Source: Ianthella basta (taxonomy: Eukaryota > Porifera > Demospongiae > Verongiida > Ianthellidae). Taken from it: a stretch of 64,000 nt of DNA. The stretch lies in the NCBI GenBank assembly GCA_964019415.1, contig OZ025869.1, forward strand, positions 12,829,430-12,893,429, written 5' to 3'. The position numbers were made by a program, and so were the translations under genes. Within the stretch, counting starts at the first letter, position 1. Each line of letters opens with the position of its first letter. A model generated the notes under the pieces. The model worked only from the letters and a program-made list of their open reading frames with translations, made no database searches and had not been told where the DNA came from. Of the stretch, positions 16,635 to 58,417 are shown one piece after another.

Positions 16635-17159
16635 GTCCACAAACACTCGCACCCAAGGAGACCAAGACGGGAAATGGATGACCAGAAGCCCAGAACAACC
16701 CTGACCCTCCCTTACATTGCTGGTCTTTCGGAGGCAGTAAGACGGATTCTTGCACCGCTAGAAATCAAGGTGGCTTTCCGCCCACAAAGCACTCTTCGCA
16801 GCTTACTTGTGCACCCCAAGGATCCAGTACCAATGGACCAACGGAAGGGGGTTGTGTACAGCGTGCCTTGTGATGGATGCTCCAAGGTGTACATTGGGCA
16901 AACTGGCCGGAGCCTCAAACACCGGCTGGCAGAACACAGACGTGCCCTGAAGAATGGAGATGTGGCAGCATCGGCCCTCGCAGAACACACCCTCGCAACA
17001 GGTCATCTGGTGGATCTCACCAAGTCAGAAGTAATTGACTGTCACCCATATGCCACCACACGCTGCCTATTGGAGAGTTGGCATATACAACGGAACCCGG
17101 ATGCACTGAATAGGGAGAAGGGAACCTTGCCTGAGGTGTACACTGCCCTCCTAGAGTAG
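16635..17159 (+). pseudogene. 5'-truncated GIY-YIG endonuclease fragment of the PLE
   Basis: About 174 codons corresponding to the C-terminus of the PLE polyprotein, ending at TAG 17157-17159. It retains the whole GIY-YIG domain (GVVY, then VYIGQTGR, a CxxC pair between them, and the later Glu in LLESWH) but lacks the reverse transcriptase and any start of its own. The frame happens to stay open into the satellite upstream (to about 16245), giving an artificial satellite-endonuclease fusion with no biological support. Compared with the full copy it has Arg instead of Gln just before the EMDD residues (16669) and one silent difference (17099). It is best seen as the coding part of the pseudo-LTR, not as a gene. 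Confidence 0.88.
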
Positions 17160-17283
17160 ATTACTATTGGATCTCTACTGTTACTGCCTAAGAAAATTCA
17201 TTGACTGTTAAAATTGTTACTTTAACGTTATTCATGGTCACATCATCAACTGTCACCACATTTCATCACCTGTCACTAACATT

Positions 17284-17293
17284 TATATATAAA
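17284..17293 (+). promoter_or_regulatory. TATA-like run in the upstream pseudo-LTR
   Basis: The run tatatataaa lies about 60 nt upstream of the predicted hammerhead cleavage site and about 105 nt upstream of the first ATG of the full copy. Pseudo-LTRs of PLEs are expected to carry the promoter, so this is the best visible candidate. In an A/T-rich UTR the match could be chance. The same run occurs at 19919-19928. Confidence 0.35.
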
Positions 17294-17316
17294 CTTTAGG
17301 AGTGCTGTATTTTGTC

Positions 17317-17359
17317 ATTCACTGATGAAGGTGGCTGAAAGCTGCCGAAACGTCTGGAT
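17317..17359 (+). ncRNA. Hammerhead ribozyme, upstream pseudo-LTR
   Basis: Core elements are in order. Stem I 5' strand ATTCA is at 17317-17321 and CTGATGA at 17322-17328. Stem II is GGTGGC (17330-17335) paired with GCTGCC (17341-17346) around a TGAAA loop, with two G-U pairs. GAAA follows at 17347-17350, then CGTC at 17351-17354, and stem I 3' strand TGGAT at 17355-17359 (5 bp with one G-U). Stem III reduces to the palindrome ACGT, which cannot close a hairpin but can pair between two molecules. Predicted cleavage is after C17354. Hammerheads of this minimal type are known in PLE pseudo-LTRs. One oddity is the unpaired A17329 where a G-C pair is usual. Activity is not shown by sequence alone. 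Confidence 0.85.
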
Positions 17360-17397
17360 AACTTGTGAAAAATTTTGGCTAGTGCGAACGAACTTGG

Positions 17398-19794
17398 ATG
17401 ATGTCAGACTTACCTAGCCACTCAGGACTTTTCAAACGTGTCAAAGAAGACAACGGCATAGAAGCACTCCAAGCAACTAGGCACTATGTTAACACAGCTT
17501 GTAAGATTAGTCGCACCCATCAACACATTGCCTTTAACCAGAGATGCCGTCGATACCAGTTGTTACCACGCAGTTTGGAAGTGAAACCTCTGGTGCCCAC
17601 CTCACAAGGATGCCGCATTGCAAGAAGAGCAGGTTTCCAGTTCCTGTCAGCACGGGTACAGCACTGCTACAGCAAGTTGAAGAACTTAGAGACGGATCTC
17701 TTCTTCCAGAAGCGTCAATTGGACCATGCCCTTGGTGCACAGAAGCTTGCAGTCCTGGAAAAGCATGTCAGCGACACCCAGACTAAGGTCTCGACTCAGA
17801 CAAAGGAACGGCAGAAGAAGAAGTTCGACAACCTTCTGGCTAGACAAACCTCCATGCAGCAAAGCCCAGGCAACCGGCGTGTGGTGAACCTGTCATCCAG
17901 ACAGCTTGATGACTCACAAATGTCAGCCTTGTCCAAAGGTCTGAATTTTGCACCTGCACCAGGACGTGTTCCCACAGCTCACTTTGTCTCCAGTGTAGAA
18001 GCAGCAATTGGTTGAACCGGAGTCAGTGATAAAGTCGCAGCAAAGGCCCGCATGTGTGTCATTGGCGCAGTCAGTCGTGCAAAGATGCCACCCAGAAACA
18101 TCCCATCAAAGGAAATGAAGGCCCTGAAGGATCTTGCCAACGATGAGGCTATTCTCATATTACCAGCAGACAAGGGCAAGGCCACAGTGGTGATGGACAG
18201 AGCAGATTATGACGGAAAGATGCTGAAGATGTTGAGTGATGAAAGCACGTACCAACCAGTGGAGAAGGACCCGACAGCACCACTGGAGAGAAAGATGAAT
18301 GCCCAACTGATGAATCTTAAGCGATCTGGTCGCCTCCCCAACGATGTGTACGCACAATTGAGGAGCTCAGCTGGCAGGACCCCCCTGATGTATGGCCTAC
18401 CTAAGGTGCACAAGCAGGACGTCCCACTCCGCCCCATTGTGTCCTTCGTGTCCTCTCCGACATACCAGCTGTCCAAGTTCCTAGCCAGCATATTAGCTCC
18501 ACTTGTCGGACGGACTAGCTCCTATGTGAGGAACTCGAAGTCCTTTGTTGATTTCATCACGACACAGACCCTGGCAGAGGATGAGATTCTACTATCCTTT
18601 GATGTGGTATCCCTCTTCACCTGTGTCCCAACGGGGCTGGCTGTCCAGATAGCCCGCCGCCGACTGGAGAATGATCCCTCCCTCCAGGACAGGACTGACC
18701 TCAACATTGATGACATCGTGGATCTCCTGACCATGTGCCTTGACGCAACCTACCTGTCCTTCAGAGGGAAGGTGTACCGGCAAGTACATGGTACCGCAAT
18801 GGGGTCGCCGGTGTCTGTAGTTGTGGCCAACCTGGTAATGGAGGATGTTGAAGAGAGAGCCCTGACCACATTTCCCTCCCCTCCCCGCTTCTGGAAGCGT
18901 TACGTAGACGATACGTGCACAGCTCTCCCCAGGGACATGGTCGAGCCCTTCCATAAGCACCTGAACTGCATCGAGCCATGCATACAATTCACAGTGGAGG
19001 AGGAGTCTGGTGATAGGAGGCTACCCTTTCTGGATGTACAGCTTTGCAGGGATTGTGATGGCACTGTTACTACATCGGTGTATCGGAAGGCCACACACAC
19101 CAACCAATACCTCTCCTTCACATCCCACCACCCGACGGCACACAAGGTAGCTGTGATAAGGACCCTCATGACCAGAGCCAACACTCTTTCATCCTCAGGC
19201 GTGGAGAGAGTGCAGGAAGAGAAACAGATTGTAGAAGCACTGCGAGAGAATGGCTATCCCCCCAGCTTCGTCCACAAACACTCGCACCCAAGGAGACCAA
19301 GACAGGAAATGGATGACCAGAAGCCCAGAACAACCCTGACCCTCCCTTACATTGCTGGTCTTTCGGAGGCAGTAAGACGGATTCTTGCACCGCTAGAAAT
19401 CAAGGTGGCTTTCCGCCCACAAAGCACTCTTCGCAGCTTACTTGTGCACCCCAAGGATCCAGTACCAATGGACCAACGGAAGGGGGTTGTGTACAGCGTG
19501 CCTTGTGATGGATGCTCCAAGGTGTACATTGGGCAAACTGGCCGGAGCCTCAAACACCGGCTGGCAGAACACAGACGTGCCCTGAAGAATGGAGATGTGG
19601 CAGCATCGGCCCTCGCAGAACACACCCTCGCAACAGGTCATCTGGTGGATCTCACCAAGTCAGAAGTAATTGACTGTCACCCATATGCCACCACACGCTG
19701 CCTATTGGAGAGTTGGCATATACAACGGAACCCAGATGCACTGAATAGGGAGAAGGGAACCTTGCCTGAGGTGTACACTGCCCTCCTAGAGTAG
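17398..19794 (+). pseudogene. PLE polyprotein: N-terminal region, reverse transcriptase, GIY-YIG endonuclease (one internal stop)
   Basis: One frame of 799 codons counting the final TAG, broken by TGA at 18013-18015 (codon 206). Start: ATG 17398 or the adjacent ATG 17401, at the edge of the upstream pseudo-LTR. Codons 1-205 are basic and helical, with a probable coiled coil near residues 85-150 and the PLE-typical LSKGLNFAPAPG near 180-192. The 580-residue part numbered from Met 18052 holds LPADKGKATVVMD (fingers), motif A FDVVSLF (Asp184), motif B GTAMGSPVS (247-255), motif C YVDD (284-287), the thumb-side SFTSHHPTAHK, then the endonuclease: GVVY 478-481, Cys485/Cys488, VYIG 491-494, Arg498 and Glu553. 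The protein would nick DNA and copy its RNA at the nick. Total length fits a full-size EN+ PLE. Both halves share the frame, so a single nonsense change is the visible lesion. Two separate ORFs, or readthrough, are less likely. Confidence 0.9.
18052..19794 (+). CDS. Open RT plus GIY-YIG segment downstream of the internal stop
   Basis: A 580-residue uninterrupted frame from the first Met after the TGA at 18013 to TAG 19792-19794. All RT palm motifs and all expected GIY-YIG residues are intact, so the enzymatic part is undamaged at sequence level. No Kozak-like or promoter signal near 18052 argues for real initiation there. It is listed separately only because it is what an automatic gene caller would report. 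Biologically it belongs to the broken 799-codon frame starting at 17398. Base composition and codon use differ sharply from the surrounding satellite, as expected for an inserted element. Confidence 0.75.
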   Translation: MCVIGAVSRAKMPPRNIPSKEMKALKDLANDEAILILPADKGKATVVMDRADYDGKMLKMLSDESTYQPVEKDPTAPLERKMNAQLMNLKRSGRLPNDVYAQLRSSAGRTPLMYGLPKVHKQDVPLRPIVSFVSSPTYQLSKFLASILAPLVGRTSSYVRNSKSFVDFITTQTLAEDEILLSFDVVSLFTCVPTGLAVQIARRRLENDPSLQDRTDLNIDDIVDLLTMCLDATYLSFRGKVYRQVHGTAMGSPVSVVVANLVMEDVEERALTTFPSPPRFWKRYVDDTCTALPRDMVEPFHKHLNCIEPCIQFTVEEESGDRRLPFLDVQLCRDCDGTVTTSVYRKATHTNQYLSFTSHHPTAHKVAVIRTLMTRANTLSSSGVERVQEEKQIVEALRENGYPPSFVHKHSHPRRPRQEMDDQKPRTTLTLPYIAGLSEAVRRILAPLEIKVAFRPQSTLRSLLVHPKDPVPMDQRKGVVYSVPCDGCSKVYIGQTGRSLKHRLAEHRRALKNGDVAASALAEHTLATGHLVDLTKSEVIDCHPYATTRCLLESWHIQRNPDALNREKGTLPEVYTALLE

Positions 19795-20038
19795 ATTACT
19801 ATTGGATCTCTACTGTTACTGCCTAAGAAAATTCATTGACTGTTAAAATTGTTACTTTAACGTTATTCATGGTCACATCATCAACTGTCACCACATTTCA
19901 TCACCTGTCACTAACATTTATATATAAACTTTAGGAGTGCTGTATTTTGTCATTCACTGATGAAGGTGGCTGAAAGCTGCCGAAACGTCTGGATAACTTG
20001 TGAAAAATTTTGGCTAGTGCGAACGAACTTGGATGATG
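19268..20038 (+). repeat. Downstream pseudo-LTR (3' end of the full PLE copy)
   Basis: This 771-bp repeat of 16633-17403 covers the endonuclease C-terminus, the 3' UTR (19795-20038) with a TATA-like run at 19919-19928, and the second hammerhead. It ends with gatgatg, and the satellite resumes exactly at a unit start (cttgcctaat, 20039). Both base differences from the upstream copy are CG here changed to CA (19304 and 19734). Confidence 0.93.
19952..19994 (+). ncRNA. Hammerhead ribozyme, downstream pseudo-LTR
   Basis: Identical to the motif at 17317-17359. Stem I ATTCA/TGGAT is at 19952-19956 and 19990-19994, CTGATGA at 19957-19963, stem II GGTGGC/GCTGCC at 19965-19981, GAAA at 19982-19985, and CGTC at 19986-19989, with predicted cleavage after C19989. 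The two predicted cut sites are 2635 nt apart, so self-cleavage of a read-through transcript would release a unit-length RNA. Confidence 0.85.
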
Positions 20039-58315: not shown

Positions 58316-58417
58316 CGATGATCTTCGCTCTGAAGAAGACCAGAGCATCTGGTCGAAACGTCGGCAAGGTTTTCAACCCTGTTATGAAGCTGGAATTAGA
58401 GAACCAACCCTTTCTGA
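58316..58417 (+). mobile_element. 102-bp non-satellite insert, probable 3' end of a second PLE-like element
   Basis: The sequence is unrelated to the satellite and to the PLE at 16583-20038 except for a hammerhead core. About 55 nt follow its predicted cleavage site, close to the 49 nt found in the intact PLE. The satellite resumes at a unit start (cttgcctcat, 58418), just as it does after the PLE. A short, severely 5'-truncated insertion is therefore the simplest reading. An ATG at 58384 lies 22 nt after the cleavage site, comparable to the start codon near the pseudo-LTR edge in the PLE. A retrozyme fragment is an alternative. The edges are uncertain by a few bases because of short matches to the satellite. 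Confidence 0.65.
58323..58369 (+). ncRNA. Second-family hammerhead ribozyme motif
   Basis: CTGAAGA is at 58330-58336; position 7 of the hammerhead core may be any base, so A is allowed. Stem II GACCAGA/TCTGGTC (58338-58344 and 58348-58354) is a perfect 7-bp helix with loop GCA. GAAA is at 58355-58358, then CGTC at 58359-58362. Stem III is again the palindrome ACGT. Stem I pairs CTTCGCT with GGCAAGG with one A-C mismatch and two G-U pairs. An unpaired A follows the CTGANGA box, as in the PLE hammerhead. The stems differ in sequence from the PLE motif while the fold is the same, which supports a real, independent ribozyme. Predicted cleavage is after C58362. Confidence 0.72.

Follow-up and report, generated by a model that had tools for sequence, protein, structure and literature searches.

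A hammerhead-bearing island in a sponge satellite is a fragment of an abundant PLE family found as unlike head-to-head pairs

Among the closest described systems is the Poseidon PLE of Anolis carolinensis (PAc), which combines an RT with a GIY-YIG domain and carries a hammerhead near the start of its ORF (PMC11167929). In vitro, this one purified PLE initiates reverse transcription internally at two sites, which lie near an AC-rich stem-loop and are separated by a tail of 30-40 nt; both target strands are cut and extended, and the ribozyme is unneeded, its mutants inserting normally. The same study reports no RNA-seq ends at the cut (PMC11167929). The described copies of the Adineta vaga Penelope families have inverted pLTRs, head-to-head structures and TSDs of 8-10 bp, with a 31-bp tail, called optional, at one inverted pLTR (PMC3846280). 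Metazoan retrozymes are small and numerous, carry type I hammerheads and have been suggested to be moved by PLEs (PMC7229834).

The window analysed here, a stretch of 64,000 nucleotides from the sponge Ianthella basta (contig OZ025869.1), is a satellite throughout, with units of ~20 bp arranged end to end. A scan of the window yielded only two non-satellite islands, a PLE at ~16.6-20.04 kb and a 102-bp island at 58316-58417; all features given below are on the forward strand. The larger island, which we take to be a PLE from its recognised motifs and structure, represents a different family from the one that is the subject of this report and forms a partial direct tandem (16636..20038, boundaries approximate). 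Core patterns of a hammerhead are present both in its upstream partial copy (17322..17354) and in its downstream copy (19957..19989); in the latter, the predicted cut falls after 19989 and the junction lies ~49 nt further on, near 20038. The reading frame of this element is broken by a stop between its two ORFs, at 18013-18015.

The first-pass annotation had described the small island as an orphan hammerhead ribozyme, left as the minimal 3' end of a second PLE or retrozyme family. The 102-bp island is real, but the match to the family described below covers only 97 nt (58321..58417), which correspond to nt 1-97 of the unit of a second PLE family, that is, to a short-start arm, with 3/97 differences from the reference unit. 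On the right, it stops where the short arms of other second-family copies stop. The 5 nt at the left junction, CGATG (58316..58320), lie outside the family match. An exact extension search placed them at only two positions in the genome, the island itself and C6:4956301, and CGATG was therefore rejected as a common 5' extension of the RNA. The window copy thus consists of one short arm, bordered on the left by a 5-nt junction and sitting in satellite; the long arm is absent and no TSD is recognisable. As an object, it is an ordinary short PLE insertion fragment, and its interest lies in the footprints left by the family as a whole. The flanks of a long PLE copy on contig C6 (L058) translate like the satellite of the window, so that PLE copies sit in this satellite on another contig too.

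The hammerhead core of the island (58330..58362; unit nt 10-42) was identified by pattern match. It reads CTGAAGA-A-GACCAGA-GCA-TCTGGTC-GAAACGTC and conforms to CUGANGA ... GAAA ... UH with a paired stem II, the perfect 7 bp of which (58338-58344 / 58348-58354) had been noticed at first pass and are borne out. The window contains three matches to the core pattern, one in the island and two in the window PLE, whereas 100 shuffles contain none; genome-wide, the pattern ending in GAAACGTC gives 1,743 matches, compared with 94 for the reversed control. The predicted cut falls after 58362 (unit nt 42), 55 nt upstream of the junction at 58417, and the interval between the cut and this short RT start (58363..58417) includes part of a predicted AC-rich stem-loop. 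As the first-pass annotation had noted, the second family has the same minimal kind of hammerhead as the window PLE, with ACGU as the only stem III in the island, and the similarity of the cut-to-junction distances (55 nt in the island, about 49 nt in the window PLE) is meaningful, as both spacings fit a start site held at a kept distance from the ribozyme.

Small PLE hammerheads that cleave as dimers have almost no stem III, a feature shared by the island core with its ACGU. The proposed check against Rfam returned no hammerhead in the island, whether the gathering score or E≤10 served as the cut-off. When the island is folded as a single strand, the most favourable structure differs from the hammerhead (the z-score is only -1.23). 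The Rfam result and this fold are both expected for a minimal motif in which stem III is only the palindrome ACGU, and an expected negative is no support either. A two-copy cofold prefers other helices as well, so that fold energies lend the hammerhead no support. Given the missing Rfam match, we class the island core as a minimal PLE-type motif and not as a canonical hammerhead.

Orphan status does not survive a search of the 209-Mb genome. The 102 bp picked out 53 candidate places, and the 40 of these that were scored contain at least 59 matches; the 19-mer at the end of the island has 1,808 matches (≤1 mismatch), and the 21-mer comprising this end plus the tail has 1,204 (≤2 mismatches), with 0 matches for the reversed control of either. 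The longer copies for which a search had been proposed do exist, and in them the unit flanks sequence resembling RT and GIY-YIG; far from being absent or set in unrelated surroundings, the copies are many and PLE-flanked. In L018, an inverted arm and a direct arm of nt 1-129 enclose ~1.8 kb with RT sequence and a broken GIY-YIG-like region, with the inverted unit on the 5' side and the unit plus tail on the 3' side, an arrangement of inverted pLTRs with a tail. The L018 coding stretch has many longer copies of ~93-95% identity among the best 40 of 274 candidates scored. The ORF of L053 shares 262/597 identities (44%) with the protein P0001 of the window PLE. Pfam gave weak RVT_1 matches, below the curated cut-off, and no GIY-YIG match in the two PLE proteins; by eye, both contain VVY...YIG followed downstream by an R/E pattern, a possible GIY-YIG motif. 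Collectively, the copy numbers, the coding flanks of L018 and the 44% identity identify a second, abundant PLE family, with a tentative GIY-YIG assignment made by eye.

Of the two identities offered at first pass, PLE or retrozyme, the former therefore stands, and the position of the unit beside RT and GIY-YIG-like coding sequence argues against a separate retrozyme family. In some respects, the island and the short copies related to it do look the part of a non-autonomous retrozyme whose tandem repeats yield circular RNA, in that copies are short (~100-230 bp) and numerous and carry a type I hammerhead, and animal retrozymes of ~170-400 nt are among those described (PMC7229834). Metazoan retrozymes are, however, built of tandem repeats that give rise to circular RNA, as presented in that description, whereas the two-armed copies of the second family are head-to-head with varying centres, the unit ends flank PLE coding sequence and the unit is continuous with the ORF; even L047, the sole direct pair among the 79 stretches examined, has PLE ORF between its units. 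We accordingly consider a retrozyme origin extremely improbable.

The anatomy of the unit recasts the junction at the right end of the island. In L056, TATAAATA (TATA box) starts 30 nt upstream of unit nt 1, and 49/124 arm ends lie at nt 1-2, from which we deduce that transcription begins at nt 1. The sole ATG of the reference unit occupies nt 97-99, and in L067 and L047 the frame stays open beyond nt 129, leading into the ORF. What had been taken for a 3' junction, and for the minimal 3' end of an element, is thus rather an internal reverse-transcription start at the ATG of the ORF. The predicted AC-rich stem-loop spans nt 72-101, with the loop ACCAACCC, and the unit has a small hairpin (TCTTC...GAAGA) in the region of the recurrent junctions described below. 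Compared with PAc as described in vitro, the second family is similar in having start sites ~32 nt apart, 55 and ~87 nt past the predicted cut, and a predicted AC-rich stem-loop near them; arms ending near nt 97 or nt 129 are the natural counterpart of the two RT starts of PAc. The two differ in the ORF start, which in PAc is at stem II, whereas the first ATG of the second-family unit is at nt 97.

To characterise the insertions, 79 stretches were examined, of which 39 came from the similarity search and 40 from contig C1. The former were chosen by similarity to the short arm, a choice that does not fix the partner arm; the latter, 40 of 87 regions in a plan drawn among the matches listed, were chosen by the 19-mer common to both arm types. 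The pair and arm counts omit seven stretches, namely L077 and L078, which belong to a large palindrome, L096-L099, which are the same as L087/L088, and L043, which is the same as L037. Among the 48 simple head-to-head pairs, 44 are long/short, two are long/other (L028, L062) and two were scored long/long. Both of the last were rejected: the partner arm of L019 is a 73% older copy, and the right arm of L067 reads into the ORF. Long/short pairs therefore make up 44/46 informative pairs, with no long/long and no short/short pair among the 79 stretches less the seven omitted. The two arms of such a pair begin at different sites, one close to nt 97 and one close to nt 129. If the ends were chosen independently, about half of the pairs should be equal-ended, and since none is, independent choice is rejected. 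Among the unlike pairs, the long arm is the left one in 18 and the right one in 28. L020, which falls outside the automatic 48, contains two insertions, both long/short.

TSDs of 8-15 bp flank 40/44 long/short pairs (they were not scored in L014, L026, L083 and L095), whereas in a control with mispaired flanks repeats of more than 6 bp arose in 9/2,000 draws. Pair centres vary between most loci, which indicates separate insertions, and a recurrent class joins nt 1-2 to nt 12-15. This set of features is reminiscent of the Adineta vaga Penelope, which shares the inverted pLTRs, the head-to-head structures, the short TSDs and the one-sided tail. In Adineta vaga, however, copies are few, and the text of the paper, in which the word hammerhead does not appear, proposes self-priming on antisense RNA, inferred from palindromes at head-to-head junctions (PMC3846280); the second family offers a large sample, in which each pair has a tail at one end and none at the other. 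A comparable snap-back here, with the second arm copied from the first arm of a single cDNA, would be in keeping with the many junctions between nt 1-2 of one arm and nt 12-15 of the other, where the unit has its small hairpin. It nevertheless predicts arms with equal ends, contrary to the ~97 versus ~129 of nearly all informative pairs, and sits poorly with the TSDs; furthermore, the stops at the sense-strand ribozyme cut site described below point to a sense RNA template. Self-priming is thus improbable as the origin of the pairs, in comparison with two-strand extension from two start sites.

One-armed short copies, to which the window copy belongs, are a minority, represented by L017, L031, L036, L037, L039, L044 and L045 among the 72 retained stretches (L031 runs past the end of its fetched stretch). 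None of them scored a TSD in the automatic scoring, and one-armed long copies with a TSD are L023, L061 (partly microhomology) and L034 (by eye). An order of events in which the long start comes first is not claimed, as in one-armed short L044 a 13-bp repeat can be made out by eye at some distance from the ends.

Junctions across the genome were collected with two patterns, one in which one arm reaches nt 43 and the other nt 51 (46 matches) and one with nt 48 on the first arm (65 matches). The 46 junction entries parsed comprise 36 of pattern 1, with palindromic loci counted once each, and 10 of pattern 2, through which alone minus-arm stops at nt 44-48 are visible; two C11 entries with an identical string are probably one duplicated locus. 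The minus arm ends at nt 43 in 29/46 entries, and the plus arm, which is not so conditioned, does so in 8/36 entries of pattern 1. At the 29 unambiguous junctions, 32/58 ends are at nt 43, with 6 at the next commonest position, and in 8 of these junctions both arms end there, separated by fillers of 1-20 nt. Among the fetched loci, 6/124 arm ends are at nt 43-44, as judged from BLAST edges with an uncertainty of a few nt. Step counts of k-mers over the cut were dropped, because CpG decay in this region would pass for a break.

The hammerhead model places its predicted cut immediately before nt 43. Arms ending right after this cut indicate that cleaved RNA is probably a template in vivo and suggest that the ribozyme built into the family works in the animal. 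These stops run opposite to the results for the anole PLE, in which no RNA-seq ends lay at the cut and ribozyme mutations left insertion in vitro unaffected (PMC11167929). RT stalling, or a second transcription start, could also place ends at nt 43, where the 3' strand of stem I begins; structured RNA is known to stall RTs, and the match to the predicted cut would then be a coincidence of position. Yet the peak falls on the single nucleotide that the hammerhead model had preset, whereas stalling would be expected at the entry to stem I (~nt 49) or stem II (~nt 34), and the fillers at junctions with both arms at nt 43 look like the products of run-off ends. We therefore regard stalling or a second start as unlikely, and ribozyme cleavage as the better account of the stops. 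Separately, the direct pair in L047 (227-587) consists of a unit that runs from nt 44 via the tail into the ORF, joined to a unit from nt 43, and a 9-bp repeat flanks this structure, which looks as if RT had jumped from one ribozyme-cleaved RNA template to another.

The two arms of a pair do not appear to acquire their 5' limits separately. The partners of minus arms that stop at nt 43 start at nt 41-51 in 29/29 entries, pattern 1 showing partners only down to ~nt 20. A search for the nt-43 stop with a longer partner gave 20 matches, of which at most 9 are possibly real: 7 share the length of L094, which has a substitution after the anchor and no break, and 4 rows are two palindromic loci. In the other long/short pairs, 73/84 arms are at nt -10 to 40 and 1/84 at nt 41-51. 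Because nt-43 arms are partnered at nt 41-51, and other arms are rarely found there, both arms tend to share, and paired arms probably do share, an RNA 5' end, which would fit a single shared RNA, or else a hammerhead dimer in which two RNAs are cut jointly. We put at even odds a model in which each two-armed PLE insertion results from two coupled reverse transcriptions, one on either target strand, obliged to begin at different start sites on a shared template, one RNA or a pair held together by the ACGU stem III, with cleavage in vivo setting the 5' ends of both cDNAs. If this model is correct, the ribozyme would take an active part in transposition, serving to process the RNA and perhaps also to dimerise it.

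Alternatively, the arms could be primed independently from separate, unlinked RNAs, with the long/short pairing reflecting only how well each site suits a strand. The anole study is compatible with this in that its in vitro data show no need for a shared RNA and no start-site difference between top and bottom strands (PMC11167929); in the latter respect PAc differs from the second family, in which both sites are used in each pair. Strand preference alone, however, does not yield the link between nt-43 stops and partners at nt 41-51, and independent priming consequently appears doubtful, if less so than stalling, as compared with a shared template.

Taken together, we assign a probability of roughly 85% to the reading that the island arose as a one-armed insertion of a second, abundant PLE family of the endonuclease type, which inserts from two start sites into two strands. 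The family RNA would start at unit nt 1 and carry the minimal hammerhead, with a predicted cut after nt 42, the ATG at nt 97-99 and RT starts at ~nt 97 and ~nt 129. Insertion would involve cutting of both target strands and extension of each with cDNA, one per start site; two-strand extension is shown by the genomic structures, and the enzymology is modelled on that of the anole PLE. The cDNAs would extend to the RNA 5' end, that is, to nt 1 or, after hammerhead cutting, to nt 43, and their ends would be joined via microhomology or filler to give a head-to-head pair between TSDs of 8-15 bp. The window copy would have made or kept the nt-97 arm only.

Two start sites were already known in vitro from the anole PLE. 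No report of either the strict long/short pairing or the cut-site stops was found in the open-access literature searched. The findings bear on PLE integration and on the role of PLE hammerheads, and constrain the mechanism; the ~1,800 end matches in a single genome amount to natural statistics for PLE insertion, and both the pairing rule and the cut-site stops can be checked in other PLE-rich genomes.

Pairs of insertions spaced by ~6.2 kb are present at three places on C1 (L087/L088, L096/L097 and L098/L099, near 4.41, 5.39 and 5.46 Mb), which suggests that a larger repeat carries them, and one head-to-head junction is present twice in the large palindrome of L077 and L078 (C1:1892474-1893329), with long ends in one and short ends in the other. 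Finally, among 20 genome core strings hand-picked from the 100 matches listed, with most second-family variants and at least one other string omitted, a stem II of at least 4 bp is kept in 14 and lacking in 6, compared with 7.6% of shuffles retaining it, which points to several hammerhead families in the genome. Some of the other stem II variants form close head-to-head pairs, such as C1:303963/304020 and C1:9843828/9843935, so that other PLE families may insert likewise.
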